Part shown: in pieces, positions 12,015 through 42,700 of the stretch | Layout of the letters: each line of letters begins with the position of its first letter | How positions within the stretch are numbered: the first letter of the stretch is position 1 | Source: Streptomyces changanensis | GTDB lineage: Bacteria > Actinomycetota > Actinomycetes > Streptomycetales > Streptomycetaceae | Length of the DNA: 64,000 nucleotides | Assembly: GCF_024600715.1 (NCBI RefSeq) | Contig: NZ_CP102332.1 | Span: 124,001-188,000, forward strand | Direction: 5' to 3' | The notes under the pieces: generated by a model | Seen by the model: the letters and a program-made list of their open reading frames with translations, nothing else | The model's database searches: none | Told to the model about the DNA's origin: nothing | Position numbers and translations under genes: made by a program

Positions 12015-13631
12015 TCAGGAGACGAGGGGGGCGGCGTCCACTTCAGCCAGCCTGACCGTGCACAGGCCGCCGCGCTCCGCCGTCACGTCCGTCACCCGCA
12101 GCTGGGTGCCCGGCGCGAGGATGTACTCCTCCTCCCCGGTGAAGGCGGAGAAGCTCCGGATACCGACCGCGTGCGCGGGTGTGACCTCGAAGAGCGTCCG
12201 CTTGCCGCGGTTGCCCAGGAAGGATCGGGCCACGCCGAGCTCGGAGGTGCACGAGGAGACGCCCCACCAGGTCACCGTCCGCCCGACCGGGTACTGCGCC
12301 CGCAGGTCCAGCGACACGCCGCGCCACAGGGGCCGGGTGTGGGCGGGCAGCCCCGAGACCGCGGAGAACAGCAGCCGCAGGTACGGCAGGTACGGCACGA
12401 CCTTGGTCCGGTCCGGGGAGCGCAGGACGGCGTTGATCTCCCGGTAGAAGGCCGACTCGCAGGTGTACAGGTGGAGCGCGGCGATCGCGTGCGCGGACAG
12501 GCCGCCGGCCGTCTCGTCCGCGCGCCGCCTGCCGAACTCCCCGGACCGGTCGATGTGCCGGCCCAGCCCGGGCAGCACGCCGGCGACCGGGGCGACGGCG
12601 TCCCGGAAGTCCATCAGCGGGGTGTCGAACACCCCGGTGATCGCCGGGAGGACGAGTCCCTCGTCCTTGACGCTGGTGAGCCGCTCCAGATACAGCTGGT
12701 GCAGCTCCATCGTCGAGGCGATGAAGGCACCCATGCGGGCCGCGACGTCGCCGTCCGTACCGCCCGCGTCGACCGCCGCCTCGTCCCACCCCTTGCTCGG
12801 CAGCCAGTCGATCTCCTCGGCGCCCAGCGACGCGAGGGCCGCGTTGACCGTGGCGAAGTGGTCGCCCTCGCAGAAGAGGTCGCCCTGGGCCGCGGGGTTG
12901 GCGTGGTCGATGTGCCGGACCTCGACGTCCGGGTACTTCTTCTGCAGCCGCAGGACGATCCTCTTCAGGCTGCGCGCGTGCGCCCCCCACCAGGCGAAGA
13001 CGACGCCGCGGTCCTCCTCGTCGGCGTCCTGCTTGGCCTTGAGGATCTCCTCGACGATCCGTTCGGCGACGGGCCGCCAGAACGCGGTGTGCCGGTCGGC
13101 TCCCATCGCGCCGTCGCCACTGGCGGTGAGCGACGCGTTCAGCAGGAGCACGCCCTGCGTGAGCATCGCCTGGAACCACTCCGGCGGCTGGACCGTCTCC
13201 CGCTCCTTCAGCAGGGCCCGCACGTCCGCGATGGGGGTCTTCCGGGCGATGCCGTACTTCCACATGGCGGCCGCCTTGATGAGGCAGCGGATGCTGACGA
13301 CCCTGCCGAACTGGCTGTCCTTCCAGTCGTTGAAGGTGTTGTCGAACATCGCTATGCCGGTGGCGCTCTCCGGCCGCGGATACGGGTTCTGCCCGAAGAC
13401 GACCACCTTCCACTTGTGCGGAGGGTGCGGCTTGAGGGCCTGGAAGGTCAGTTCCCGGACGGGGACGACCTCCGGGCTCCGGCCCTGGCCGATGAACCCG
13501 GCCGCGTCCGGCTGCGCCTCGATGACGGGCTTGAGCAGCGGGAGCCAGGGCTCACCCCCGCCCTTGAAGAGGTCGGTGAGACCCAGCGGGTCGTCGGCGT
13601 CGGGCTGGGCCGGGGTGGTGGCGTCACTCAT
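12015..13631 (-). CDS. Uracil-DNA glycosylase-like domain fused to an arginine-type ADP-ribosyltransferase
   Basis: A 538-residue two-domain protein. Residues about 20-280 align throughout with family 1 uracil-DNA glycosylase: VVVFGQNPYP (77-85) replaces GQDPYH, GVLLLNASLT (160-169) and VFAWWGAHAR (211-220) are conserved, DHANP (242-246) replaces HPSP, and GDHFATVNAALASLGAEEIDW ends the domain as in Ung. The catalytic Asp is Asn82, as in the SMUG1/MUG families; His243 remains. Residues about 300-520 form a classical ADP-ribosyltransferase: LWRGV (R437), WWGVSSCTS (S459-S463), and TGEEEYILAPG with E500-x-E502, the R-S-ExE triad of arginine-specific enzymes. It lies 85 nt behind a macrodomain gene under a DNA-damage-type promoter. 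The role is inferred: modification of DNA or of a DNA-bound protein upon damage, reversed by the macrodomain. Confidence 0.85.
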   Translation of the reverse strand: MSDATTPAQPDADDPLGLTDLFKGGGEPWLPLLKPVIEAQPDAAGFIGQGRSPEVVPVRELTFQALKPHPPHKWKVVVFGQNPYPRPESATGIAMFDNTFNDWKDSQFGRVVSIRCLIKAAAMWKYGIARKTPIADVRALLKERETVQPPEWFQAMLTQGVLLLNASLTASGDGAMGADRHTAFWRPVAERIVEEILKAKQDADEEDRGVVFAWWGAHARSLKRIVLRLQKKYPDVEVRHIDHANPAAQGDLFCEGDHFATVNAALASLGAEEIDWLPSKGWDEAAVDAGGTDGDVAARMGAFIASTMELHQLYLERLTSVKDEGLVLPAITGVFDTPLMDFRDAVAPVAGVLPGLGRHIDRSGEFGRRRADETAGGLSAHAIAALHLYTCESAFYREINAVLRSPDRTKVVPYLPYLRLLFSAVSGLPAHTRPLWRGVSLDLRAQYPVGRTVTWWGVSSCTSELGVARSFLGNRGKRTLFEVTPAHAVGIRSFSAFTGEEEYILAPGTQLRVTDVTAERGGLCTVRLAEVDAAPLVS

Positions 13632-13716
13632 GGGGGTGGGGCTCCCGGTCGTCGTACCTGGGGGGTGGACGTGGTCGGCGGGCCCACCGGCCGGGGGGCC
13701 GGCGGGGTGGACGGGG

Positions 13717-14394
13717 TCAGGGGCGAAAGGGACGCCCTTTGGGCGGCACGATGCGCACCCGCTCCCCCACCTGGGCGTTCTCGATGCCGTCGAGCTGGGC
13801 GGTGATCGTGGCGCGCAGCTCGTCGTCGTCCTCGAACCAGTGGTCGTGGAAGAGCGTGTAGCCGGTCCACATCAAGTCGGCGCAGACCCGGGCCGGCACC
13901 CGGCCGGTCTGCGCGCCCATCCCGACCAGCGCCACCGAACGGACGCTGCCCGGCACCAGTCGGTTCTGCCGGTGGACGGCCTGGAAGGCGGCGGCGCACG
14001 CCAGCGCCACGTTCAGCGTGTCCCGCACGTTCTGGGAGGACCGGACCATGGTCGGCGTCGATATCAGGTACCGCGGGACGGCCGCGCCCGACGGGACGCA
14101 GACCGCGCTGCCCACCGGGAGGCTCCCGGCGAACCGGTCGCGGATCGCCCGCTGCACCCGCAGCTGGATGCCGGCTCCGAGGTGCCGCTTGATGGCGGCG
14201 TCGACCCCGCCGTCCATCCGACCCCGGGAGTTGGTCGGCGTGACCCACGCGTCGACGTTCTCGGCGAGGATCGAGCCCCGGCGGATCTCGATGCCGGGAG
14301 TGTCGGCGAAGGCCGCCCGCCACGCCTCGACCACACGCTCGTTGACATCGGTCAGCACCACCCTGAGCGCGGGCCCCACACGGTTCTCCGTCAT
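13717..14394 (-). CDS. Macrodomain protein (probable ADP-ribosyl hydrolase or binder)
   Basis: A 225-residue macrodomain. RGSILAENVDAWVTPTNSRG followed by MDGGVDAAIKRHLGAG corresponds to the ADP-ribose-binding core, usually DAIVNAAN...GGGVDGAI. The first loop reads VTPTN, so the usual first Asn is Thr, while the second Asn and the GG-V-D loop remain. A later loop (VALVGMGAQTGRVPARVCA) fits the second phosphate-binding loop. The ATG follows ACAGGAG with good spacing. It is the promoter-proximal gene of a two-gene operon with the glycosylase-ADP-ribosyltransferase fusion. That order suits an antidote made first. By analogy with DarG it may remove the ADP-ribose added by its neighbour; this is inference. 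Confidence 0.85.
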   Translation of the reverse strand: MTENRVGPALRVVLTDVNERVVEAWRAAFADTPGIEIRRGSILAENVDAWVTPTNSRGRMDGGVDAAIKRHLGAGIQLRVQRAIRDRFAGSLPVGSAVCVPSGAAVPRYLISTPTMVRSSQNVRDTLNVALACAAAFQAVHRQNRLVPGSVRSVALVGMGAQTGRVPARVCADLMWTGYTLFHDHWFEDDDELRATITAQLDGIENAQVGERVRIVPPKGRPFRP

Positions 14395-14434
14395 CGTCCA
14401 CTCCTGTCGGGAAACAGCCCTTCCAACACCCCGG

Positions 14435-14457
14435 ACGCTAGCCGCCACCACTGACAA
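14435..14457 (-). promoter_or_regulatory. RecA-NDp-type (DNA-damage, PafBC-class) promoter
   Basis: Read on the minus strand: TTGTCAGTG (14449-14457), 8 nt, TAGCGT (14435-14440). This matches every defined position of the consensus tTGTCRgtg-N8-TAnnnT described for LexA-independent DNA-damage genes in mycobacteria and Streptomyces. It leaves a 5' leader of about 35 nt before the macrodomain ATG. Confidence 0.8.
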
Positions 14458-28895: not shown

Positions 28896-29015
28896 CGCTA
28901 CGTTCACCGAAAGGCCCGAATTCCCGCTCCGGGCCCGCGCGACCTTGCGCCTTCCCGCGGCCTTTTGTGGCCGAAATCCCCCCTCCGGGCAACGCCATCG
29001 CACATTCGGAGAATT

Positions 29016-32000
29016 ATGACGTCGGCAGAGCACGTCCTGAATCCGGTCATCGGACTGACCCCCTTCGGCGAGCCCGACGCGCGTCTCGCGGCCGCGGTCA
29101 CCCGCGGCGGTGGGCTCGGCGTCCTGGACCTCGGCCCCGGTGACCGCGCCGCCCGTGCGGCCCTCGGCGACCTGCGCGGGTGGCTCCCCGGGCGGTACGG
29201 CGTGCGGATCGGGCCGCGGTGCCGATTACGCTCCGGCGACGTGGCCGGGCTCCTCGGCGGTCCGGGCGGGCCCCGTACCGTGCTCCTGGGCGCCGGGGCG
29301 GCTCCGCGCGCCGCCGACCTGCCGCCCGGCGTACGGGTGCTGGCGGAGGTCACCGGCCTGGCGGAGGCCCGGGCCGCCCTGGACGACGGCGCGCACGGCC
29401 TGGTCGCCCGGGGCAGCGAGTGCGGCGGCCGGATCGGCGACCTGGGCACCTTCGTCCTGCTGCAGCAGCTCCTCGACGCCACCGGTCCCGACGGGCCGCC
29501 GATATGGGCCTGCGGGGGCATGGCACCGGGCACGGCCGCCGCGGCCGTCGTCGGCGGCGCGGCGGGCGTCGTCCTCGACACGCAGCTGGCCCTCCTCGCG
29601 GAGTCGTCCCTCCCCGCGTCCGTCGCGGCCGTCCTGCGGTCCGTGGACGGTTCCGAGACCACGGTGCGGGGCGGGCACCGCTTCCTGCCCCGCCGCCGGC
29701 CCGGTGGCGATCCGCCGGAGGCGGATGCCCCCGCCGACGAGGACCGCGTCGCCGCGATGCTCGGCGGGCGCGACCCGGACACCCGGCTCCTGCCGGTCGG
29801 ACAGGACGCTTTCCTCGCCGCCCTCTTCGCCGACCGCCACCGCGACGCGGCCGGCGCCGTCCGCGCCGTCACCGCAGCCGTCCGGGCCGCGACCGAGGAC
29901 GACGCCGCCGCCCGCGGCCTGCGCGCCGGGGCGCCCATGAGCCGCGCGCTCGGCACGGCGCTGCCGGTCGCCCAGGGCCCGATGACCCGGGTCAGCGACG
30001 GAGCGGACTTCGCCCGCGTTGTCGCCGACGGCGGGGCCCTGCCCTTCCTCGCCCTGGCCCTCGCCGACCGCGGCCGGGCCGACGCCCTGCTCTCCGAGGC
30101 CGCCGCAGCGCTCCGGGGCCGCCCCTGGGGCGTGGGGATCCTCGGCTTCGCGCCGGAACGGACCCGTGCGGCGCAGCTCGACGCGGTGCGCGCGCACCGG
30201 CCCAGCCACGCCGTCATCGCCGGGGGCAGGCCCTCGCAGGCCCGCGCCCTGGAGGCGGACGGCATCCGCACCTTCCTCCACGTGCCCTCCCCCGGGCTGC
30301 TGCGCCAGTACCTCGCGCAGGGCACGCGCCGGTTCGTCTTCGAGGGCGCCGAGTGCGGCGGCCACGTCGGGCCGCGCAACAGCTTCCCGCTGTGGGAGGC
30401 GCAGACCGGCGTCCTGCTCGACCACCTGGCGGACGACCCCGGCGCCGCACCGGGGATCGAGGTGTTCTTCGCGGGCGGCGTGCACGACGCCCGCTCCGCC
30501 GCCATGGTGGCCGCCCTGGCCGCGCCGCTCACCGCTCGCGGCTGCGCGGTCGGCGTGCTGATGGGCACCGCCTACCTGTTCACCCGGGAGGCCGTCACCC
30601 ACGGCGCCGTGCGCCCCCTGTTCCAGCGGCAGGTGCTCGCCGCCGAGCGGACCGCGCTGCTGCGCACGGCACCCGGGCACGCCACCCGGTGCGTACCGAG
30701 TCCGTTCAGCGACGGTTTCCGCGACCTCGCGGCGGGCCTGCGCGCCGAGGGCCTCCCCGAGCGCGAGGTCTGGGAGCGGCTGGAGCGCCTGAACGTCGGC
30801 CGGCTGCGGCTGGCGAGCAAGGGCGTCGAGCGCACCGGCACCGGTGCCCTGATCCCGGTCGACGAGGAACGGCAGTACGCCGAGGGGATGTTCATGGCCG
30901 GCGAGGTGGCGGTGCTGCGCGACGCCACCACCACCGTCGCCGCGCTGCACGCGTCCGTCACCGAGGGGGCCGCCGCCTTCCTGGACCGGCGGCGCGCCGC
31001 CCTGCGGGCCGGTCGGGACACGGCCCGCGCCGGGGACGGCCCCGGGGCGCCGGCTCCGCTGGACGTGGCCGTCGTCGGCATGGCCTGCATGTTCCCCCAG
31101 GCCCCGGACCTGGCGTCCTTCTGGGCGCAGGTGCTGGACGGCCGCGACGCCGTCACCGAGGTGCCGCCGGAGCGCTGGGACCCGGCCGTGCACTGCTCCC
31201 CCGGCCCGGACGGCGCCGACGCGCCCAGCGCGTCCCGGTGGGGCGGGTTCCTGCCGCGCGTCCCCTTCGACCCGCTGCGCTACGGCATCCCGCCGGCGTC
31301 GCTGGGCAGCATCGAACCGGTGCAGCTGCTCGCCCTGGAAGCGTCCCGGCGCGCCCTGGAGGACGCCGGCTACGGCGAGGGGGGCCGCCCCTTCGACCGT
31401 ACGCGGACCGGTGTGGTGTTCGGCACGGAGGCCGGCAGCGACCTGTCCCACGCGACCACGCTGCGGACCGTGCTGCCCTCCTACTACGGGCAGGTGCCCG
31501 CGGCGCTGGACGGGCAGCTGCCGCGGCTCACCGAGGACACCTTCCCCGGGCTGCTCGCCAACGTCGTCGCCGGCCGGGTCGCCAACCGCCTGGACCTGCG
31601 CGGCCCCAACTACACGGTGGACGCCGCCTGCGCGTCCTCCCTGGCGGCCGTGGACGTGGCGTGCAAGGAACTCGTCCTCGGCACGAGCGACGTGATGCTG
31701 TGCGGTGGCGCCGACCTGCACAACGGCATCAACGACTACGCCCTCTTCACCTCCGTGCACGCCCTGTCCCCGACCGGCCGCTCCCGCGCCTTCGACGGTG
31801 CCGCCGACGGCATCGCGCTCGGGGAGGGCGTCGCCTGCGTCGTCCTCAAGCGCCTCGCGGACGCCGAGCGGGACGGGGACCGCGTGTACGGGGTCATCAA
31901 AGGGGTGGGTGCCTCCAGCGACGGCCGCTCCCTGGGACTGACCGCACCCCGGCCGGAGGGCCAGCGCGCCGCCCTGGAACGTGCCTACCGGAGCGCCGGC

Positions 32001-35000
32001 GTGTCCCCCGCCGAAGTGGGCCTGCTGGAGGCGCACGGCACCGGGACCGTGGTCGGCGACCGCACCGAACTGGGCGTGCTGACAGACGTCTTCAGCGAGG
32101 CGGGAGCCCCCGGCGGGAGCTGCGTGCTGGGCTCGGTGAAATCGCAGATCGGGCACACGAAGTGCGCGGCGGGACTGGCCGGACTCGTCAAGACCGCGCT
32201 GGCCCTGTACACCGGGGTGCGGCCCCCCACCCTGCACCTGGAGCGGCCGAACTCCGCCTGGCGGGCCGGCGACAGCCCCTTCGTCTTCCACCGCGAGGCC
32301 CTGCCGTGGCCGGCCGCCCCGGAGCGGCGGTACGCGGGGCTGAGCGCCTTCGGGTTCGGCGGCACGAACTTCCACGCGGTGCTGGCCGCCCACCGCGCGG
32401 CCGGGCCCCCACCGGCGCACGCCCGGGACGCCTGGCCGGCGGAGCTCTTCCTGTTCCGCGGGGCCGACCCCGCGGCCGCCCGACACGCCGCGGCCGAGAT
32501 GCTCGCCCCGGCCGCCGCGGCCGCCCGCGGTGAGGCCCCGTGGCGGCTGCGCGACCTGGCGGCGACGGCGGCCCACCGCGCGGCGCGGGCCCGGGGGGCG
32601 GTCCGGATCGCCTTCGTCGCCACGGACGTCGAGGACCTGTGCCGGTTGCTGCGGGCGGCCGTGGAGACGGATGGTCGGGCGGACGGCGGGACCGACGGCC
32701 GGGCGGGCGCGGGTGCCGGGGACGGCGTGCACCGGGCGGTCGGGGGAGGTGGGGAGGCCGGGTGTACGGCGTTCCTCTTCCCCGGGCAGGGCAGTCAGCG
32801 GCCCGGGATGTCCGCCCACCTCTTCACCACCTTCCCCGACCTCGGCCGGCTGCTCGGCGCCGACACGGACGGCCGGGCGGTCGCGGCGCTGTACCCGCCC
32901 GCCGCCTTCGACGACGCCGCCCGGGAGGAGGCGCGGCGGGCCCTCACCGACACGCGGGCCGCCCAGCCGGCCCTGGGCGTGGTGGAGCTGGCGGCGTACG
33001 AGCTGCTCACCCGCTGCGGGATCCGCCCCGACATGGCCGCCGGCCACAGCTACGGCGAGCTGGTCGCCCTGTGCGCGGCGGGCGTGGTCGACGCCGAGGC
33101 GCTGCCGCGGCTGAGCTCCGCCCGCGCCGCGGCCATCCTGGACGCGGCCGGGGACGAACCCGGCGCCATGGCGGCGGTGGCCGCCGCGCCGGACGACATC
33201 GGCCGGGTCCTGGGCGGCCCGCCGCTGCCGGGCGGGCTGGTGGTCGCCAACCACAACGCGCCCCGGCAGAGCGTCCTGTCCGGACCGACGCACGCGGTCG
33301 AGGCGGCGGCGCGCCGGCTGCGGGACGCGGGGCTGGGAGTGAGGCGGCTGCCGGTGGCGTGCGCCTTCCACAGCCCGCTCGTGGCCGGGGCAGGGCCCGC
33401 CTTCGGCCGGGTCCTGGACGAACAGCCGCTGCGCGAGCCGGAGTTCACCGTGTGGGCCAACCGCACCGCCCGTCCGTACGGGTCCGGGTCGCAGGCGGTG
33501 CGTGAGGAGCTCGCCGCGCAGATCGGGGCCCCGGTACGGTTCGCGGCGCAGATCGAGGCGATGTACGGCGCCGGGGCCCGGACCTTCGTCGAGGTCGGCC
33601 CCGGTCGGGTGCTGACCCGGCTCGTCTCGGACGTCCTGGGCGACCGGCCGCACCGCGTCGTCGCCTGCGAACCACACGTCGGCAGCGGGCTCCCCGGCTT
33701 CCTCGACGCGCTCGCCAGGCTCGCGGTGGCCGGGGTGCCGGTGGCCCACGACTGGATGTTCCGCGGACGGGACGCCGTCGACGTCGACGTCACCGCCCCA
33801 CCCCGCACACCCGGCTGGACGGTGGACGGACACCTCGTCCGCACCGCGTCCGGCGAGCCGCTCCCCGGCGCCCTCGCGCCGGCCCGACGAGTCGTGGAGG
33901 CCCCCGTGACGACGAACCCCGACGAGGCGCCGGGCGGCGCGTCGGACGCGCTGATCGCCGAGTTCCTGCGCAGCAGCCGGGAGGTGATCGCCGCCCAGCG
34001 GGACGTGCTGCTGACGTACTTCGGCGGCGTGCCGGAGGGGGCGGCCCCCGGCCGGAGGGACCCCGTACCGCTGTCCCCGCCCCTGGTGTCGCCGGTGTCG
34101 GTGTCCGGGCCCGTGGCGCCGCCGCGGTACGAGGCCGGGCCGGTGCCGGAGCACGGGGCCGGGCGGTCGGACGGTACCGGCGTAGCGGAACCGGCGGCGC
34201 CGGCCGCGTACGGCGCGGTACCCGTCCCGCCGGGCGACGGGGCGGCGGAAGCCCCCGCGCCGCGGACCGCCGCGCGGCTCACGGAGGAGACGGTGCTGCG
34301 GGCGGTCCTGGAGCTGATCAGCGAACGGACCGGCTACCCCCTGGACATGGTCGAGCCGGGCCTCGACCTGGAAGCCGACCTCAGCGTGGACTCCATCAAG
34401 CGCGCCGAGATCGCGGGCGAACTCGCGCGGCGTCTCGGCGGCTCGGGGGGCCCGACGCCGGCGGCGCTGGACGACACGGAACTGGAGGAGCTGACGCGGG
34501 CGCGGACCGCCTCCGAGATCGCCCGGTGGCTGGTGGCCCGCGCGGCCCCCGCCGGCCCGGAAGAGGACCCGCCCGCCCCACCCGGGGCTCCGGTCACCGC
34601 GCCCGGTGCGGTCCGGGGCGACGCCCCGTCGACGTACGAGGAGCCGGGCTCCACCGCCCCGGACGGTGACGGCCTCGGCGCGGGTCGCACCGCGTGGCCC
34701 GGGTGGGCGCCGGGTACCGGAGCGGCCGTCCCTCCCCGTGCCATGGCCGGTGCACGGGCCACCGACCCCCTGCCCGCCGGGGCAGCCACGCCGGCCGCGG
34801 AGGCACCGGACCCGGCGGAGCCGGTCGTGGCCGCTCCCCGGCGGTACCGGGTCGTCCAGCGGGCCCTGGCCGGTGCGGGCGGCGCGGCGGCGGACCTCGC
34901 CGGTACCCGGTGGGTGCTGCTCGGGGACGGGACCGGGGCCTGGCGCGGGACCGCCGCCGAGCTGCGGGCCCGGCTGGCGGCGCGGGGCGCGCACGCGGTG

Positions 35001-36392
35001 ACGGCGGCGGACACGGACCTGACGGCCGTGGCGGACGGCCCGCCGGACGGTGTCGTCCTGCTGGGCGCGCTGGGCGACGACGGCGGGCCGCCCTTCCTGC
35101 CGGCCGGTTTCCCCGTCGTGCGCGCCGCCCTGCGGGCCGCCCCGCGGCGCCTGATCCTCGCCCGGGAGGCCGGATACGGGGCGCGGGCGGCCGGTACGGA
35201 CGGCCTGCTGCGGTCCGCCGCCCGCGAGTACCCCGACGTCACGGTGCGCTGCGTCGCGCTCACCCCGGGCGGCGCACTCGACGCGGACGGTCCCGACACC
35301 CCGGTCGGGATGTCCGGCGGGGCCGGGGCACCCGGTGGGGGCGGTGTGTCCGGTGCGGTGGCGGCCGCGGAGGCGCTGCTGGACGAGCTGACCGCGGACG
35401 GTACCGAACCCGTGGTGGTGCGTACGCCCGCCGGGCGGTTCGCGCCGGGGCTCGTCGAGGCGCCCCTCGGCCCGCTCGCCGGTACCGGCGCGGGGCCGGC
35501 CGGCGAGGGCGCCGCCGAGGCGCAGGCCCTGGGACTGGACCGCGACAGCGTGCTGGTCGTCGTCGGCGGGGCCCGCGGGATCACCGCGCGGTGCGTCACC
35601 GCGCTGGCGGCCGCCGCCCACTGCCGGATCGAGCTCCTCGGCCGCACCCCGGCGCCCGCGGGCCCCGAGGAGCCGGTGACCGCCGTGGCGCCCGACCGCG
35701 CCGCCCTGCGGGGCGCACTGGCCCGTACCGGGCGCCACGCCTCGCCCGCCGACGTGAACCGCGCCGCCGACCTGATCCTCGCCCAGCGGGAGGTCGCCGC
35801 GACGCTGGACGCCGTGCGCGCCGCCGGCGGCCGGGCCGCGTACCGCAGCGTCGACTGCCGGGACGCGTCCGCCGTGCTCCAGGCCATCAAGGAGATCCAT
35901 TCCGAACACGGCCGCGTCGACGGGGTGGTCCACGCCGCCGGGATCATCGAGGACCGGCTGATCGAGGACAAGTCGGAAGCGTCGTTCCGCCGCGTCCACG
36001 GCACCAAGGCGGAGGGCGCGGCCGCGCTGCTCACGGCGGTCGAGCAGCTGCCCGAGGCGGAACGCCCCTCCTTCGCCGTCCTGTTCGGCAGCGTCGCCGC
36101 CGTCCTCGGCAACCGCGGTCAGGCCGACTACGCCGCCGCCAACGACGCGCTGGAGACGTACGGCGCCGCCTGGGCCGCCCGCACGGGGCGCCGTGCGCTG
36201 ACCGTGCACTGGGGGCCGTGGGCCCCTTCCGAGGGACACGGCGGCATGGTCGGCCCGGAGCTGGCGCGGCACTACGCCCGGCGCGGGGTGCGCCTGATCG
36301 ATCCGGAGGAGGGCGCCCTGGCCCTGTTGCGGGAGCTCGCCTGGGGCGACCCGGCGGAGCGGGCGGTCGTCCTGACCGCCTCGGAGTGGTGA
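29016..36392 (+). CDS. PUFA-synthase-like type I PKS: NPD-NPD-KS-AT-ACP-KR
   Basis: A 2458-residue megasynthase. Two nitronate-monooxygenase-fold (NPD/PfaD-like) domains come first (about 8-240 and 305-670), each with an ECGG flavin/active-site loop. PVAQGPMTRVSDGADF in the second is typical of PfaD, the enoyl reductase of PUFA synthases. Then KS (about 680-1110; C872, H1007, H1047 intact), AT (about 1250-1590; GHSYGE, S1345; CAFHSP fits malonyl), one ACP (about 1750-1830; DSIKR, S1793) and a KR (about 1945-2450; GGARGITARC, Tyr2372 in ADYAAAND). The ATG is 5 nt after GGAG. From memory it resembles the S. coelicolor SCO0124-SCO0129 locus, annotated as a PUFA/EPA-like cluster. It probably builds a reduced or partly unsaturated chain iteratively with the next protein. 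Confidence 0.88.
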   Translation: MTSAEHVLNPVIGLTPFGEPDARLAAAVTRGGGLGVLDLGPGDRAARAALGDLRGWLPGRYGVRIGPRCRLRSGDVAGLLGGPGGPRTVLLGAGAAPRAADLPPGVRVLAEVTGLAEARAALDDGAHGLVARGSECGGRIGDLGTFVLLQQLLDATGPDGPPIWACGGMAPGTAAAAVVGGAAGVVLDTQLALLAESSLPASVAAVLRSVDGSETTVRGGHRFLPRRRPGGDPPEADAPADEDRVAAMLGGRDPDTRLLPVGQDAFLAALFADRHRDAAGAVRAVTAAVRAATEDDAAARGLRAGAPMSRALGTALPVAQGPMTRVSDGADFARVVADGGALPFLALALADRGRADALLSEAAAALRGRPWGVGILGFAPERTRAAQLDAVRAHRPSHAVIAGGRPSQARALEADGIRTFLHVPSPGLLRQYLAQGTRRFVFEGAECGGHVGPRNSFPLWEAQTGVLLDHLADDPGAAPGIEVFFAGGVHDARSAAMVAALAAPLTARGCAVGVLMGTAYLFTREAVTHGAVRPLFQRQVLAAERTALLRTAPGHATRCVPSPFSDGFRDLAAGLRAEGLPEREVWERLERLNVGRLRLASKGVERTGTGALIPVDEERQYAEGMFMAGEVAVLRDATTTVAALHASVTEGAAAFLDRRRAALRAGRDTARAGDGPGAPAPLDVAVVGMACMFPQAPDLASFWAQVLDGRDAVTEVPPERWDPAVHCSPGPDGADAPSASRWGGFLPRVPFDPLRYGIPPASLGSIEPVQLLALEASRRALEDAGYGEGGRPFDRTRTGVVFGTEAGSDLSHATTLRTVLPSYYGQVPAALDGQLPRLTEDTFPGLLANVVAGRVANRLDLRGPNYTVDAACASSLAAVDVACKELVLGTSDVMLCGGADLHNGINDYALFTSVHALSPTGRSRAFDGAADGIALGEGVACVVLKRLADAERDGDRVYGVIKGVGASSDGRSLGLTAPRPEGQRAALERAYRSAGVSPAEVGLLEAHGTGTVVGDRTELGVLTDVFSEAGAPGGSCVLGSVKSQIGHTKCAAGLAGLVKTALALYTGVRPPTLHLERPNSAWRAGDSPFVFHREALPWPAAPERRYAGLSAFGFGGTNFHAVLAAHRAAGPPPAHARDAWPAELFLFRGADPAAARHAAAEMLAPAAAAARGEAPWRLRDLAATAAHRAARARGAVRIAFVATDVEDLCRLLRAAVETDGRADGGTDGRAGAGAGDGVHRAVGGGGEAGCTAFLFPGQGSQRPGMSAHLFTTFPDLGRLLGADTDGRAVAALYPPAAFDDAAREEARRALTDTRAAQPALGVVELAAYELLTRCGIRPDMAAGHSYGELVALCAAGVVDAEALPRLSSARAAAILDAAGDEPGAMAAVAAAPDDIGRVLGGPPLPGGLVVANHNAPRQSVLSGPTHAVEAAARRLRDAGLGVRRLPVACAFHSPLVAGAGPAFGRVLDEQPLREPEFTVWANRTARPYGSGSQAVREELAAQIGAPVRFAAQIEAMYGAGARTFVEVGPGRVLTRLVSDVLGDRPHRVVACEPHVGSGLPGFLDALARLAVAGVPVAHDWMFRGRDAVDVDVTAPPRTPGWTVDGHLVRTASGEPLPGALAPARRVVEAPVTTNPDEAPGGASDALIAEFLRSSREVIAAQRDVLLTYFGGVPEGAAPGRRDPVPLSPPLVSPVSVSGPVAPPRYEAGPVPEHGAGRSDGTGVAEPAAPAAYGAVPVPPGDGAAEAPAPRTAARLTEETVLRAVLELISERTGYPLDMVEPGLDLEADLSVDSIKRAEIAGELARRLGGSGGPTPAALDDTELEELTRARTASEIARWLVARAAPAGPEEDPPAPPGAPVTAPGAVRGDAPSTYEEPGSTAPDGDGLGAGRTAWPGWAPGTGAAVPPRAMAGARATDPLPAGAATPAAEAPDPAEPVVAAPRRYRVVQRALAGAGGAAADLAGTRWVLLGDGTGAWRGTAAELRARLAARGAHAVTAADTDLTAVADGPPDGVVLLGALGDDGGPPFLPAGFPVVRAALRAAPRRLILAREAGYGARAAGTDGLLRSAAREYPDVTVRCVALTPGGALDADGPDTPVGMSGGAGAPGGGGVSGAVAAAEALLDELTADGTEPVVVRTPAGRFAPGLVEAPLGPLAGTGAGPAGEGAAEAQALGLDRDSVLVVVGGARGITARCVTALAAAAHCRIELLGRTPAPAGPEEPVTAVAPDRAALRGALARTGRHASPADVNRAADLILAQREVAATLDAVRAAGGRAAYRSVDCRDASAVLQAIKEIHSEHGRVDGVVHAAGIIEDRLIEDKSEASFRRVHGTKAEGAAALLTAVEQLPEAERPSFAVLFGSVAAVLGNRGQADYAAANDALETYGAAWAARTGRRALTVHWGPWAPSEGHGGMVGPELARHYARRGVRLIDPEEGALALLRELAWGDPAERAVVLTASEW

Positions 36393-36393
36393 G

Positions 36394-39300
36394 GTGACCC
36401 GCCCTCCGCACGGGACCGGCGCCCCCGCCGCCGCGCCCGTCGCCATCACCGGCATGGCCGTACTGCTGCCGGGCGCGCCCGACATGGACGCGTACTGGCA
36501 CAACCTGCGCGCGGGCGTGGACGTCATCGGCGAGGTCCCGCCGGGCCGCTGGGACGCCGCCTACTACCACCCCGGCACCGCGCCGGAGCCCGCGACGGCC
36601 GACCGGGTCTACTGCCGGCGCGGCGGGTTCGTGGACGCCGTCGCGGAGGTCGACGTCACGCGCTGGGGGGTCATGCCGCGTTCCGTGCCCGGCACCGAGC
36701 CGGACCAGCTGATCGCCCTCCACGTGGCCGCGGCCGCGCTCGCCGACGCGGGGGGCGCCGACCGGCTGCCCGACCGCGACCGGGTCGGGATCGTCCTCGG
36801 GCGGGGCGGCTACCTCACCCCCGGCCTGGTCCGCCTCGACCAGCGGGTCCGCACCGCCCATCAGTTGGTGCACACCCTCGGCGAGCTGGTGCCCGGGCTG
36901 GACGCGGACCGACTGGACCGGGTGCGGGAGGCGTTCACCGCGCGCCTGGGCCCGGACCGGCCGGAGGACGCCATCGGGCTCGTGCCCAACCTCGCCGCCT
37001 CGCGGGTCGCCAACCGCCTGGACCTGCGGGGCCCCGCCTACACCGTCGACGCCGCCTGCGCGTCGTCGCTGCTGGCCGTGGACCAGGCCGTCGCCGCGCT
37101 CGCCTCCGGACGGTGCGACCTGATGCTCGCGGGGGGCGTGCACCACTGCCACGACATCACGCTGTGGAGCGTCTTCTCGCAGCTGCGCGCCCTCTCCCCC
37201 AGCGAACGGATCCGCCCCTTCCACCGCGGCGCCGACGGCCTCCTCATCGGCGAGGGCACGGGGGTGGTGGTGCTCAAGCGCCTCGCCGACGCGCAGCGCG
37301 ACGGCGACCGGGTCTACGCCGTCATCCGCGGTACCGGGGTGAGCAGCGACGGCCGCGCCTCGGGCCTGGTGAACCCCGATCCGGCCGGGCAGGCCCGCGC
37401 GGTGCGGGCGGCCTGGCGGGCCGCCGGCCTGGACCCCGCGGCGCCCGGCGCGCTGGGGATGCTGGAGGCGCACGGCACGGGCACCCCCGCCGGCGACGCC
37501 GCCGAACTGGCCACGCTGCGGGAGGTGTTCGGCCCGGCGGACACCGGTGCGTCCGCGCACCGGGCGGTGATCGGATCGGTGAAGTCCATGATCGGGCACG
37601 CCATGCCCGCCGCGGGGGTGGCGGGGCTCGTCAAGGCGGCACTGGCCGTCCACCACGGCGTGCTGCTGCCGACCCTGCACTGCGAGGACCCCCATCCGGC
37701 GCTGGCCGGGACCCGCTTCCGGCCGCTCGCGCAGGCGGCCCCCTGGGAGCCCGCACCGGGTGGCGGGCCGCGCCGGGCCGCGGTCAACGCCTTCGGGTTC
37801 GGCGGGATCAACGCGCACGTCGTCCTCGAACAGGCCCCGCGCCGGGCGGGCGCCGTACCGGCCGGATCACCGGCGCCGCCCGCCGCCACGGCGGGGGCGG
37901 GGCGGCGGGGGCGGGCGGTGGTCGACGAGCCGGAGCGGGTCCTGCTGCTGGCCGCCGCGACGCCCGACGCCCTCGCCGGCCTCCTCGACGAGCACCAGGC
38001 CGCAGCAGCGGCGGGCGCGGTGGGTGGCGTGGTCGGGGTCCCGGCCGGTGCGGACGCCGGCCCGGTGCGGCTGGGCGTCGTCGGTCCCACCCCCAAGCGG
38101 CTCGCCCTGGCCCGGCGGGCCGTCGCCAAGGGCGAACCCTGGCACGGGCGCGGCGACGTGTGGTTCCGGCCGTACCCGCTGGTGGGTGCCGGCGCGTCCG
38201 GGGCCGGGGCGGGCGCGGCCGGCCGGACGGTCTTCCTCTTCCCCGGTCTCGAGGCGGAGTTCGCGCCCCACGTGGACGACGTCGCCGACCGGTTCGGCCT
38301 CCCCCGCCCACCGACCGCCCCCGCCGGGCCCCCGGACGGCGGCCCGGACGGACGGAACGGACCCGACGGATCGGGCGGGTCGGGCGGGCTGGGCGGGTCG
38401 GGCGGGTCGGCCGGGTCGGCCGGGTCGGGCGGGCTGGGCGGGCTGGGCCGGCACGGGCTCGGTGTCGTCGCCGTCGGCCGCCTGATGGACGCCGTGCTGC
38501 GCCGCATGGGCGTCGTCCCGGACGCGGTCGCCGGACACAGCGTCGGCGAGTGGACGGCGATGGCCGCGGGCGGCCTCTACGAGGAGGAGGCGGTCGACGC
38601 GTTCATGGCCGCCCTCGACCCGGAGACGGTCCGGGGCGCCGACCTGGCGTACGCGGCCGTCGGCGCGCACGCCGACCGGGTCGCCGGACGGCTGGCCTCC
38701 GGAGACCACCCGGGTGTGGTCGTCTCGCACGACAACGCCCCCCGCCAGTCCATGGTCTGCGGGCCGCCCGCCGCGGTGGAGCGGTTCGCCGCCGTGCTGC
38801 GCGCCGAAGGGGTACTGGTCCGCACGCTGCCGTTCCGCTCCGGCTTCCACACCCCGATGCTCGCGCCCTGTCTCGGGCCGTTCCGGGACGCCGCCGAGCG
38901 ACTGCCGCTGCGCACCCCGCACACGCCCGTCTGGTCCGGTACGACGGCGGCGCCGTTCCCGGCCGACGAGGCGGGCGTCCGGGAGCTGTTCGTACGCCAC
39001 CTCCTCGAACCGGTCCGCTTCCGCGCGCTGACCGGGGCGCTGTACGCGGCGGGCTTCCGGGTCTTCGTCCAGGCGGGGCCCGGGCAGCTCGGCTCCCTGG
39101 TGGGTGACTCGCTCGCCGAGCGGGACCACCTGGTGGTGGCCGCCAACTCCGCGCAGCGCGGCGGGCTCGACCAGCTCCGGCGGGTGGCCACCGCCCTGTG
39201 GACGGCGGGCGTCGCCACCGGCCCGCACGCGGTCGACGCGCCCGACGGGCCCCACGCGACCGGGCGCGCCGCCCACCGCCCCGCTCCCGTCGTCGTCGAC

Positions 39301-41493
39301 GGGCGGGCCGGGCGGCCCGGGCGGCGGGACCAGCCGGTCCGGCTGGACCTCGGCGGCGCGCTGGTGACCCTGCCGCCGTCCGCCCGCCCGTCCCTGACCC
39401 CGCACGCCTCCCCCGGCGCCGGACCCGTTGTGCCGGCCGCCGCCGACCCGGCCGTCGGCGCCCCCGCCGTCGCGCCCGCGCCGGCGGCCGCCGGCCCCGT
39501 CGCGGTGGAGCTGGCGGCCCTGCTGCACGAGACCGCGCAGGCCGCGCGCACCGCCGCCGCGCTGCTCGGCGCGGACCGTACCGCCGCGCCCGCACGCCGC
39601 CCGGCACCGGCGGCCGTCACACCGCCGGAGCGGCGGCCGGGACGGATCCCGGGAGGCGGGACGGGGCGCGGCACGGGGCAGGGGGCGGGTCAGCGTCCCG
39701 CGGACGCCGTCCGCTCGGAGGGCGTACCGCGCCGGCCGGGTGCCGCCCCGACGGGTCCCGCGCGGCGCGAGACGGTACGGCACGAGACGGTGCGGGTGTC
39801 GGTCGAGCACACGCCGTACCTGCTGGACCACTGCTTCTTCCCGCAGCGCGCGGACTGGCCGGACGTCGCCGACCGGTGGCCGGTGGTGCCGGCGACGACG
39901 ATCGTGGCGCACCTGACGGCGGCGGCGGAGCGGGCCGTGCCGGGGCGGGTGGCCGTGGCGGTGCACGACGCGTGCTTCGACCGGTGGCTCACGGCGTCCG
40001 AACCGGTGGACGTCCCGGTCACCGTCACCCCGCGCGGGCCGGGGCGGGTGGCGGTGTCGTTCGGACCGCACGCCCGCGCCGTCGTGGAACTGGCCGACCG
40101 TCACCCCGCGGCGCCTCCGCCGCCCGCACCGCCGAACCCGGCCTCCGAGCGCGCGCCCGACCACACCGCCGAGCAGGTTTACCGGGAGCGCTGGATGTTC
40201 CACGGACCGGCCTACCAGGGCCTGAGCCGGCTCACCGCCATCGGTGACCGACACGTGCGGGCCACCCTCACCACGCCGCCCGCGCCGGGCGCGCTGCTGG
40301 ACAACGTCGGCCAGGTCCTCGGCTACTGGATCATGGCGACCCGTACCGAGCGGACCGTGGTCTTCCCCGTACGGATGCGGCGGCTGCGCTTCTTCGGCCC
40401 TGAACCGCGGCCCGGGACGCCGGTGGAGTGCCTGGTGCGGATCGGCTCCCTCACGGACACCGTCCTGGAGGCCGACGCGGTGCTGACGGTGGCGGGACGG
40501 GTGTGGGCGGAGCTGACCGGCTGGCAGGACCGCCGCTTCGACAACGACCCGCACACCCGGCCGGTGGAACGCTTCCCCGAGCGCCACACCCTGTCGGCGA
40601 CCGGGCCCGGCGGCTGGTCGCTGGTGTTCGAGCGCTGGCCCGACCTGGCGTCCCGGGAGCTGATCATGCGCAACGCGCTGGGCGGTCCCGAGCGGGCCGC
40701 CTACGCCGCCAGACCGCCGCGCGGCCGCCGGCAGTGGCTGCTGGGCCGGATCGCCGCGAAGGACGCCGTGCGCCGTCTGCTGTGGGACGCCGGGGAGGGG
40801 CCCGTCTTCCCGGCCGAGCTCCTCGTGGAGAACGAGCCGTCGGGGCGGCCGCGGGTCACCGGTCGGCACGGGCGCTCGCTCCCGCCGCTGGCGGTGTCGC
40901 TGGCGCACCGCGCCGAGGCGGGTGTCGCGCTCGCCCTCCCCGGACGCCCGCCGGACGCGGTGGACGCGGTGGACGCGTCGGGCTCGGTGGGCGGCGTGGG
41001 GGCGGGGGCCTGTCGGCCGGGGCCGGGGATCGACATCGAGGAGATCGCCGTGCCGGCCGGGGCCACCGTGGCCACCGCGCTCGGACCGGAGGAGTACGCG
41101 CTGCTGACGGCCTGCCAGGCACGGTCCGGGGAACCGCCCGAGGTGTGGTTCACCCGCTTCTGGGCGGCGAAGGAGGCCGTCGCCAAGGCGGAGGGCACCG
41201 GCTTCGGCGGCCGCCCCCGGGACATCGCGGTGACGGCCGCCGACCCGGACCGGTTGACGGTCCACGTCCACCGGCCGGACACGCTGCGGATCACCACCGG
41301 TACACCGGACGGGTCCGGCGCGTCCGGCACGCCGCGCACACGGGTCCCGGCCCGCGTGTACCGGGTCGACTGCGCCCGGGTCGCCAACCCGCCGGGGCTG
41401 CCGCCGCGCGCGTACGTCGTGGCGTGGACGACCGGCCCGGACCCGGAACCGCCGGGTACGGGCGCCGACCGTGACGAGGGGGACCAGTCGTGA
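36394..41493 (+). CDS. PUFA-synthase-like type I PKS: KS-AT-DH-phosphopantetheinyl transferase
   Basis: A 1699-residue partner synthase starting with GTG 1 nt after the previous stop. KS is at about 10-470 with catalytic C222, H360 and H402 all present, so it is not a chain-length-factor-type decarboxylase-dead KS. AT (about 610-950) has GHSVGEW with S716. After an Ala/Pro-rich linker comes a double-hotdog dehydratase (about 1120-1400) with H1146 in LLDHCFF and D1303 in LLDNVGQVLG. An integral Sfp/AcpS-like phosphopantetheinyl transferase ends the protein (about 1440-1690): GIDIEEI with D1547 and WFTRFWAAKEAVAKAEG. The PPTase would activate the ACPs of this system. A Gly/Ser repeat tract (residues about 650-690) may have expanded by slippage. 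It has no thioesterase. Confidence 0.88.
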   Translation: MTRPPHGTGAPAAAPVAITGMAVLLPGAPDMDAYWHNLRAGVDVIGEVPPGRWDAAYYHPGTAPEPATADRVYCRRGGFVDAVAEVDVTRWGVMPRSVPGTEPDQLIALHVAAAALADAGGADRLPDRDRVGIVLGRGGYLTPGLVRLDQRVRTAHQLVHTLGELVPGLDADRLDRVREAFTARLGPDRPEDAIGLVPNLAASRVANRLDLRGPAYTVDAACASSLLAVDQAVAALASGRCDLMLAGGVHHCHDITLWSVFSQLRALSPSERIRPFHRGADGLLIGEGTGVVVLKRLADAQRDGDRVYAVIRGTGVSSDGRASGLVNPDPAGQARAVRAAWRAAGLDPAAPGALGMLEAHGTGTPAGDAAELATLREVFGPADTGASAHRAVIGSVKSMIGHAMPAAGVAGLVKAALAVHHGVLLPTLHCEDPHPALAGTRFRPLAQAAPWEPAPGGGPRRAAVNAFGFGGINAHVVLEQAPRRAGAVPAGSPAPPAATAGAGRRGRAVVDEPERVLLLAAATPDALAGLLDEHQAAAAAGAVGGVVGVPAGADAGPVRLGVVGPTPKRLALARRAVAKGEPWHGRGDVWFRPYPLVGAGASGAGAGAAGRTVFLFPGLEAEFAPHVDDVADRFGLPRPPTAPAGPPDGGPDGRNGPDGSGGSGGLGGSGGSAGSAGSGGLGGLGRHGLGVVAVGRLMDAVLRRMGVVPDAVAGHSVGEWTAMAAGGLYEEEAVDAFMAALDPETVRGADLAYAAVGAHADRVAGRLASGDHPGVVVSHDNAPRQSMVCGPPAAVERFAAVLRAEGVLVRTLPFRSGFHTPMLAPCLGPFRDAAERLPLRTPHTPVWSGTTAAPFPADEAGVRELFVRHLLEPVRFRALTGALYAAGFRVFVQAGPGQLGSLVGDSLAERDHLVVAANSAQRGGLDQLRRVATALWTAGVATGPHAVDAPDGPHATGRAAHRPAPVVVDGRAGRPGRRDQPVRLDLGGALVTLPPSARPSLTPHASPGAGPVVPAAADPAVGAPAVAPAPAAAGPVAVELAALLHETAQAARTAAALLGADRTAAPARRPAPAAVTPPERRPGRIPGGGTGRGTGQGAGQRPADAVRSEGVPRRPGAAPTGPARRETVRHETVRVSVEHTPYLLDHCFFPQRADWPDVADRWPVVPATTIVAHLTAAAERAVPGRVAVAVHDACFDRWLTASEPVDVPVTVTPRGPGRVAVSFGPHARAVVELADRHPAAPPPPAPPNPASERAPDHTAEQVYRERWMFHGPAYQGLSRLTAIGDRHVRATLTTPPAPGALLDNVGQVLGYWIMATRTERTVVFPVRMRRLRFFGPEPRPGTPVECLVRIGSLTDTVLEADAVLTVAGRVWAELTGWQDRRFDNDPHTRPVERFPERHTLSATGPGGWSLVFERWPDLASRELIMRNALGGPERAAYAARPPRGRRQWLLGRIAAKDAVRRLLWDAGEGPVFPAELLVENEPSGRPRVTGRHGRSLPPLAVSLAHRAEAGVALALPGRPPDAVDAVDASGSVGGVGAGACRPGPGIDIEEIAVPAGATVATALGPEEYALLTACQARSGEPPEVWFTRFWAAKEAVAKAEGTGFGGRPRDIAVTAADPDRLTVHVHRPDTLRITTGTPDGSGASGTPRTRVPARVYRVDCARVANPPGLPPRAYVVAWTTGPDPEPPGTGADRDEGDQS

Positions 41494-41855
41494 CGACCAG
41501 CCGGCCCGGCGTGTCCGGGGCCACCGACGAGGCGGACGAGGCGGACGAGGCACGGATACTCGCCGAACTGACCGCCATGATCCAGCAGGTGCTGGAGGGG
41601 TACGAGCTGGAGGAGGGCGAGGTCACCCCGGCGACCCGCTTCGGCAGGGACCTCGAACTGGAGAGCATCGACCTGGTGACGCTCGCCGGGCTGCTGGAGG
41701 AGCGCTACGGCGGTGCGGTCAACTTCGCCGCCTTCGTGGCCGACATGGAGCTCGAGGAGATCATCGAGCTGGACGTGGGCCGACTGGTCGGGCACATCCG
41801 CCGGTGCCTGGAGGCCGCGGACGGAGTCCGGTCGGACGGAGTCCGGTCGCGATGA
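41490..41855 (+). CDS. Free acyl carrier protein
   Basis: A 121-residue acidic carrier protein. The phosphopantetheine site is Ser59 in RDLELESIDLVTLAG, where Glu replaces the usual Asp before Ser. The start is GTG overlapping the PKS stop (GTGA). The C-terminal helices read LEERYGGAVNFAAFVADMEL. It is the second ACP of the pathway, since the megasynthase has only one, and may serve chain transfer to, or release by, the following hydrolase. The fused PPTase of the upstream gene likely loads it. Confidence 0.88.
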   Translation: MTTSRPGVSGATDEADEADEARILAELTAMIQQVLEGYELEEGEVTPATRFGRDLELESIDLVTLAGLLEERYGGAVNFAAFVADMELEEIIELDVGRLVGHIRRCLEAADGVRSDGVRSR

Positions 41856-42700
41856 CCTTCCTCGACACCGGCCGGGTCCGGCTGCACGTGCAGCGCCTCA
41901 CCCCCACCGGCGGTGGCCCGGCGCGCGCGACCGTGGTCCTGCTCCACGGCCTGCTCACCGACAGCCTCGCCAGCTACTACTTCACCGTGGCCCCGGCCTT
42001 CGCCGCCGCCGGTCTGGACGTGGTCATGTACGACCACCGGGGGCACGGCCGCAGCGGACGTCCGGCGTCCGGCTACGGGCTCGACGCGTTCACCGACGAT
42101 CTGGAGGCGGTGCTCACCGGGGTCGGGGTGCCCGGGCCGGTGCACCTGGTGGGCAATTCGTACGGCGGCACGGTCGCCTTCTCCTACGCCCAACGGCGCC
42201 CGGAGCGGGTGGCGAGCCTGGTGGTCGTCGAGTCGGAACCCGCCACCGCGGCGTGGGCGGTCAAACTGGCCGGGTTGCTGGAGCGGGTCCGCCACGCGAT
42301 GAGCACCGACGAGGAGGCCGCCCTCGACTGGATCGCCGCCCACCACGGCGGCCACACCGCCCGCCTGGCGAGGTCCGCCGGACGGCTGGTGCGGGACACC
42401 ACCATCGCCCGGGACGTTCCGGCCGGCCCGGTGCTCGACGACGCGCGGATCCGCGCGATCCGCTGCCCCGTCCTCGCCCTCTACGGCGCCGACTCCGACC
42501 TGGCGGCACAGGCGCCCCGGCTGCGCTCGCTGCTGCCGCGCTGCACCACGGAACTGCTGCCGGGGCTGCGGCACTCGGTGCTGGTGGAGGCGCCCGGCCT
42601 CGTGCGGGACGCGGTCCTCGACTGGGTCACCCGCCACGCCCCGCCGCCGGAGACCGCGCCGAAGGCGGTCGCGGCGGGGGCGGAGGTGGGCTCGCGGTGA
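41852..42700 (+). CDS. Alpha/beta hydrolase (candidate chain-releasing thioesterase)
   Basis: A 282-residue alpha/beta hydrolase. The oxyanion motif is VVLLHGLLTDS, the nucleophile Ser is in LVGNSYGGTVAF, the acid is in ALYGADSDL, and His is in LRHSVLVEAPG. The ATG overlaps the ACP stop (ATGA). Since neither PKS protein has a thioesterase and no other release enzyme is in the operon, the natural role is hydrolysis or esterification of the ACP-bound chain. Its sequence is closer to general esterases and menaquinone-type hydrolases than to PKS type II thioesterases. The role is inferred from context. Confidence 0.82.
   Translation: MTFLDTGRVRLHVQRLTPTGGGPARATVVLLHGLLTDSLASYYFTVAPAFAAAGLDVVMYDHRGHGRSGRPASGYGLDAFTDDLEAVLTGVGVPGPVHLVGNSYGGTVAFSYAQRRPERVASLVVVESEPATAAWAVKLAGLLERVRHAMSTDEEAALDWIAAHHGGHTARLARSAGRLVRDTTIARDVPAGPVLDDARIRAIRCPVLALYGADSDLAAQAPRLRSLLPRCTTELLPGLRHSVLVEAPGLVRDAVLDWVTRHAPPPETAPKAVAAGAEVGSR

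Follow-up and report, generated by a model that had tools for sequence, protein, structure and literature searches.

A macrodomain gene and a uracil-DNA glycosylase-like/ADP-ribosyltransferase fusion gene form a conserved pair behind a DNA-damage-type promoter in Streptomyces

DNA-damage-activated ADP-ribosylation is a textbook alarm of eukaryotic cells. In the DarT/DarG system, an ADP-ribosyltransferase (ART) is obligately paired with a macrodomain. In Streptomyces, hydrolysis of ADP-ribose is induced by damage, and the authors of the corresponding study describe the relevant transferases as yet undiscovered (PMC5087735). The S. coelicolor macrodomain hydrolase gene SCO6735 has a RecA-NDp promoter like the macrodomain gene described here, but encodes a TARG1/ALC1-like protein of 161 amino acids (aa) and has an amino-acid permease gene as its neighbour (PMC5087735, PMC9411070). 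Here we analyze a locus of Streptomyces changanensis that lies in a window of 64,000 nucleotides (124-188 kb of the 6.82-Mb contig NZ_CP102332.1, near the chromosome end if the contig is the chromosome). On its minus strand a RecA-NDp (PafBC-type) promoter is followed by a macrodomain gene, a gap of 85 bases and a gene for a fusion of a uracil-DNA glycosylase (UDG)-like domain to an ART (Table 1). We give an even chance to the reading that this cassette is an accessory, damage-induced system for lesion-targeted, reversible ADP-ribosylation of proteins, equipped with its own reader or eraser. A preliminary description of the locus had placed both genes, their domains and the transferase residues where they are found here; R437, S459-S460-C461-T462 and E500-E501-E502 are read directly. 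New with respect to it are the absence of the catalytic Asp from the UDG half, natural single-chain macro-UDG-ART proteins, and the occurrence of the transferase family in PARP1-like proteins of protists.

The association of the two genes was followed in the closest 80 of 204 related loci, three of which have no readable upstream flank at a contig edge, so that 77 were counted. In all 77 the macrodomain gene is directly upstream of the fusion gene, either divergent from it (38 loci), fused to it in one reading frame (22) or in tandem with it (17). Among 245 genomes of the order, the genome of the window included, the fusion is present in 44, and a macrodomain scoring above 400 bits is found in the same 44, always adjoining (16 in tandem, 12 divergent and 16 that frame and open length indicate to be fused); these genomes overlap in organisms with the 77 loci and are not an independent set. 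The pair also occurs in four of four records from a plasmid collection and in two of two genomes of another family. In twelve other genomes of the order the macrodomain matches are all weak (30-42 bits), and we take them for other macrodomains; in one further genome (G723) these models find macrodomain fragments only, with a scrap of the UDG part alongside. The obligate pairing proposed earlier is thus borne out, and the loss of the macrodomain from most homologs, which had been named as evidence that would speak against it, is not seen: within the Streptomyces-like clade whose flanks were readable, the partner is kept throughout.

The distances between macrodomains correlate with those between fusion proteins (r = 0.833, reached in none of 1000 permutations), and together with the adjacency in 77 of 77 loci and 44 of 44 genomes this rules out the macrodomain as a passing neighbour. 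A larger operon was likewise rejected, as no other neighbour was found in more than 5 of the 77 loci with a crude gene caller. A tree of the fusion protein requires three changes of layout, the least possible number being two; because the genes adjoin everywhere in spite of these changes, the partnership has been constant while gene order and strand changed. Kinship among the genomes inflates the linkage numbers, and the layout changes and natural fusions are the cleaner argument. Natural single-chain macro-UDG-ART proteins exist: among the matches listed for the fusion protein (120 of 1110), 78 are longer than 700 aa, and the domains were checked for P0025. The closest named relative is a Streptomyces kanasensis protein with 98% identity. 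Both genes decay jointly in two of the five remnants examined. These decayed cassettes, L171 (G090) and L175 (G723), retain macrodomain and UDG-ART pieces that are both shrunk through internal deletions.

The assignment of the macrodomain is supported by a score of 43.1 bits against PF01661 (cut-off 22) and by the invariance of N55, G62, G63 and D65. The best fold match, on a model of low confidence, is Ymx7, and no SCO6735 entry was recognised among the PDB matches at E ≤ 1.

Five exact matches to TTGTCAGTGG-N7-TAGNNT occur in the 6.9-Mb genome, against none to the reversed control pattern. The five sites precede the macrodomain gene, recA, the canonical ung gene and two genes without known function, and the promoters of recA and of the cassette have the same -10 element, TAGCGT. 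As the motif is common to the cassette and to recA of its own genome, the cassette is a candidate member of the RecA-NDp/PafBC regulon. The site had been called perfect; the match to the pattern is indeed exact, and the word is slightly too strong, since at base 11 it has T in place of the C of the consensus. The start of the canonical ung gene lies 39 or 54 nt 3' of its exact promoter (L003; G000:C1:836802-836824, minus strand), which suggests that ung may be under damage control in this Streptomyces. The remaining two sites (L002, L005; G000:C1:263521-263543 and 6480050-6480072) have open reading frames of 312 and 284 aa just behind them. Two tandem WYL genes, roughly 1 kb from each other on the same strand, are also present; their products resemble PafC and PafB, and we take the genes to be pafC and pafB.

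A site matching at least 12 of 14 positions is located 40-110 bp 5' of the macrodomain gene in 72 of the 77 related loci, in all layouts, at a distance of 61-104 bp with a median of 63 (58-68 bp in 65 of the 72). The scores at this place are 14/14 in 33 loci, 13/14 in 34 and 12/14 in five, whereas the remainder of these 993,336 bases contains no sites at 14/14, five at 13/14 and ten at 12/14; nine of these 15 lie between divergent genes and face the fusion gene. The five loci with no site of at least 12/14 at that place are L024, which is cut by a contig edge, L056, L058, L064 and L071. When the 38 divergent loci were scored in both directions at a threshold of at least 10/13, a site pointed toward the macrodomain in 37 and toward the transferase in 21, with 0.2 expected from shuffles, and 17 had no such site toward the transferase; the divergent genes thus often appear to have a damage-type promoter each. 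Linkage and promoter placement are far beyond chance, and the damage-type promoter claimed for the operon stands. SOS control as the main signal was rejected, as a loose SOS-box pattern matched just 2 of the 77 upstream regions, and scans for sigma-70 promoters and terminators gave nothing useful.

The transferase half of the fusion matches PF01129 with 39.9 bits (cut-off 22.3, E 3.9e-10). R437, S459-T462, E500 and E502 do not vary across 41 aligned, diverse relatives, which rules out chance or wrong-frame open reading frames and agrees with the complete R-S-ExE motifs reported earlier. According to one paper, Glu at the target-specifying place of the ARTT loop, in the rule X-X-aromatic-X-X-E-X-E, marks the arginine type (PMC7827354). 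The window protein has the triad together with such a loop (F497, E500, E502). Its best solved matches, by sequence as well as by fold, are Vis, 6dre/6drh (presumably Tre1), ExoS/T, XopAI, HopU1 and ART2.2, all of which are arginine-specific, protein-modifying enzymes. The loop therefore points to a transferase of the arginine-modifying type, and this counts against a mark on DNA, one of the two targets that the preliminary description had proposed.

Searches with the transferase half alone returned, among the 120 of 145 matches listed, mostly UDG-ART proteins or pieces of them, two proteins (P0216, P0218) and proteins with PARP_reg and WGR domains. P0216 and P0218 carry the same transferase domain behind a third kind of N-terminal region, and in P0216 the ART is the only Pfam domain. 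When P0233 was used as a seed (120 of 1279 matches listed), 118 proteins had WGR, PARP_reg and ART domains and two had PARP_reg and ART; zf-PARP was also present in 21 and BRCT in 23. Together, P0233 and P0241-P0357 form a large PARP1-like family (WGR, PARP_reg, and in some zf-PARP, BRCT or SAP) whose catalytic domain is the arginine-type PF01129. The named hosts are dinoflagellates of the genera Symbiodinium, Crypthecodinium, Durusdinium, Prorocentrum and Effrenium, the other rows being metagenomic. P0261, a Symbiodinium natans protein named 'PARP2' with zf-PARP, ankyrin, WGR, PARP_reg and ART domains, shares 44% identity with the ART half over 177 aa (E 5e-42), and P0240 shares 41% over 217 aa. 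The window protein itself has no WGR, PARP_reg or zf-PARP among its Pfam matches up to E 1. Whole UDG-ART proteins or C-terminal pieces of them (P0221, P0224, P0226, P0202) were seen in Symbiodinium, in further data sets that are eukaryotic or unnamed, and in one Sandaracinaceae genome, and transfer of UDG-ART between bacteria and protists is possible. No paper on the protist combination of PARP_reg/WGR with this ART was found in the open-licence PubMed Central (PMC) literature, which is weak evidence of absence.

The fusion is present in 31 of 199 genomes of the genus (30 whole, one split over two contigs), or about one in six, with scraps in three more, and its presence is patchy at 16-18% in the genus and order samples. 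The class sample (n = 394) yielded 13 whole copies, two of them outside Streptomyces, and one remnant; the phylum sample (n = 396) yielded three copies, all from Streptomyces. A further copy is in a Nocardia record (L059), where contamination is possible. Of 72,556 records in the plasmid collection four have a copy: two are clearly plasmid-sized (335 kb and 1.5 Mb) and two are chromosome-sized, from Embleya (5.7 Mb) and Nonomuraea (11.9 Mb), the latter probably a chromosome. The cassette is accessory and probably horizontally mobile.

Could the cassette be a phage-directed toxin-antitoxin, fused or paired? The UDG-like half would then sense, or act as a decoy for, uracil-rich phage DNA or a DNA-mimicking UDG inhibitor, the transferase would modify an essential host protein and halt growth, and the macrodomain would be the antidote. 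We keep this as a possible, if rather unlikely, alternative because the presence of the cassette is patchy. The obligate linkage fits it, as does the leading position of the macrodomain wherever the two are in tandem or fused, and single-chain toxin-antitoxins are known. Also in its favour are the copies on plasmid records (two of the four being chromosome-sized), a self-contained cassette without other regular neighbours, the joint decay of the two genes and the near fold match 6drh, which is an ADP-ribosyltransferase toxin/immunity pair. However, the promoter type that the cassette has in common with recA and ung better fits a repair response, and the relatives of the transferase are the PARP1-like proteins of protists. 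Nor did any family in the PADLOC 2023 models match up to E 1. Carriage as phage cargo was rejected: in six phage records the match is confined to the UDG part, and no relative is encoded in any of the 15 viral-contig stretches picked up by a pattern.

The UDG half is homologous to solved UNG proteins, with 5x3g (E 2.9e-13) and many other UNGs found by phmmer in the PDB. It reaches E 4e-20 against NCBIfam UNG models, yet falls short of their equivalog cut-offs (72.5 bits against 162; 61.1 against 185.75), and has no Pfam match up to E 1. Asn82 stands at the place of the catalytic Asp of GQDPY, a residue that all 22 distinct ordinary UNGs possess (23 rows were compared, L117 repeating L099). Among 357 fetched proteins GQNPYPR occurs in 120 and GQDPY in none, and N82 is found without exception in the window protein and in 80 loci. 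Conversely, His243 of motif B is kept, as in all 22 distinct UNGs. The place of Ala247 is taken in the ordinary UNGs by Leu (17 rows), Met (5) or Arg (1). In the HMMER alignment Met95 is at the place of the stacking Phe of UNG, a soft point, as the MAFFT alignment is gapped there. The AlphaFold2 model of this half is poor; the lack of a UDG row in its fold lists results from that and is not evidence against a UDG fold. Two other UNG-like genes are present in the genome, one of them above the curated cut-off and with GQDPYH.

Because the catalytic Asp is lost, the UDG half is probably a binding module, cutting DNA poorly or not at all. An alternative is that it still excises a base and the transferase then acts on the remainder or on itself, passing the abasic site to repair. 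Gln81, Tyr84, Asn165 and His243 are retained, and the closest solved relative, 5x3g, with which the half shares the stretch PYPRPESA, is named a uracil-DNA glycosylase. Moreover, the MUG and SMUG1 families use Asn at the Asp place of motif A, and residual activity is possible. As every copy seen has the exchange of Asp for Asn, and as the insertion-loop Leu is replaced by Ala, we regard excision as improbable.

A DarTG-like arrangement, in which the transferase would mark DNA at a site found by the UDG half and the macrodomain would remove the mark, is very improbable: a transferase and a macrodomain do occur together, and SCO6735, a DarG-like macrodomain whose gene likewise has a RecA-NDp promoter, takes ADP-ribose off thymidine in DNA (PMC9411070), but the ART belongs to PF01129 and has a Glu-type loop where the DNA-type enzyme ScARP has Gln (PMC7827354), its fold matches are those named above, and no DarT model is among its Pfam matches up to E 1 (the ART matches listed are PF01129, PF07471 and PF03496). 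Promoter, linkage and motifs thus uphold the earlier proposal that a transferase tied to DNA damage works with a macrodomain, while its DNA-marking version is disfavoured by the ARTT loop and the fold matches.

Lesion-targeted protein ADP-ribosylation, the reading we favour, would proceed as follows. DNA damage would lead a PafBC-type activator to switch on both proteins; in mycobacteria PafBC is activated by single-stranded DNA (PMC11804915). The probably disarmed UDG-like half may bind DNA that is single-stranded or carries uracil, abasic sites or other damage, leave it uncut, and hold or activate the transferase at the lesion. There the transferase would ADP-ribosylate arginines of repair or replication proteins, or of itself, and the macrodomain, in some species part of the same chain, may read or remove the mark and restrain the enzyme. 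Weighing against control by PafBC, one study indicates that the mycobacterial motif is seemingly not conserved in S. venezuelae (PMC9380542).

We consider the UDG half a candidate damage sensor because the same catalytic family sits behind PARP1-type break sensors in protists; this parallel is the strongest hint for such a role, and still a hint. With lesion sensor, transferase and macrodomain, the cassette could be a functional analogue of PARP1 in bacteria. We therefore propose tentatively, with a little less than even confidence, a bacterial counterpart of PARP1 in which a disarmed UDG fold would sense lesions and turn on an arginine ADP-ribosyltransferase at damaged DNA, with a macrodomain reader or eraser on the same operon or chain, one transferase having been wired at least twice to unrelated sensors of DNA damage.

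Table 1. Features of the cassette, with positions in the window.
Feature	Position	Strand	Remarks
RecA-NDp (PafBC-type) promoter	14435..14457	-	TTGTCAGTGG-N7-TAGCGT, 40 nt 5' of macrodomain ATG
Macrodomain gene	13717..14394	-	225 aa, ATG start, AGGAGTGG 5' of start
UDG-like/ADP-ribosyltransferase fusion gene	12015..13631	-	538 aa
Family-1 UDG-like domain, residues 23-277	12801..13565	-	phmmer against PDB; NCBIfam UNG models
UDG motif A, G80-Q-N82-P-Y-P-R	13374..13394	-	Asn in place of catalytic Asp
UDG motif B, H243-A-N-P-A-A-Q	12885..12905	-	His retained; Ala247 in place of intercalating Leu
R-S-ExE ADP-ribosyltransferase domain, residues 369-530	12042..12527	-	
NAD-binding Arg437 (predicted)	12321..12323	-	invariant, alignment of 41 relatives
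S459-S-C-T462 motif, after W455-W456	12246..12257	-	invariant, alignment of 41 relatives
ARTT loop, S495-A-F497-T-G-E500-E-E502	12126..12149	-	fits X-X-aromatic-X-X-E-X-E; E500, E502 invariant

Elsewhere in the window, at 28965-43989 on the plus strand, lies a polyketide/fatty-acid synthase cluster with NMO-KS-AT-KR and KS-AT-DH-phosphopantetheinyl transferase proteins followed by a glycosyltransferase.

For the combination of UDG, transferase and macrodomain no paper was found in the open-licence PMC literature, again weak evidence of absence, and the known systems resemble the cassette in part. DarT/DarG shares the obligate pairing, but DarT targets DNA bases, whereas the cassette has an R-S-ExE transferase of the arginine type, a UDG half and a damage promoter. 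The solved chain 5x3g, which we take to be a BdiUNG-like UDG, keeps the Asp of motif A and has no transferase, in contrast to the UDG half with its Asn and its transferase. From the arginine mono-ADP-ribosyltransferases ART2.2, Tre1, HopU1, XopAI, ExoS/T and Vis, which are ecto-enzymes or delivered toxins, the transferase of the cassette differs by its fusion to a UDG-like domain and its linkage to a macrodomain. The macro-PARPs PARP9 and PARP14 carry macrodomain and transferase on one chain, as does the fused layout, but have a PARP-type catalytic domain and no UDG half. The cassette thus offers a concrete candidate transferase, combining a damage promoter, a lesion-type sensor half and a macrodomain, in about one in six of the sampled Streptomyces genomes. 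The protist PARP1-like proteins have the same transferase family, likewise fused to a part for recognition of DNA damage; their sensor consists of WGR and PARP_reg, joined in some members by zf-PARP, BRCT or SAP, where the cassette has the UDG-like domain, and no macrodomain is among their listed Pfam domains. One catalytic family therefore connects candidate damage-sensing transferases of bacteria and protists.

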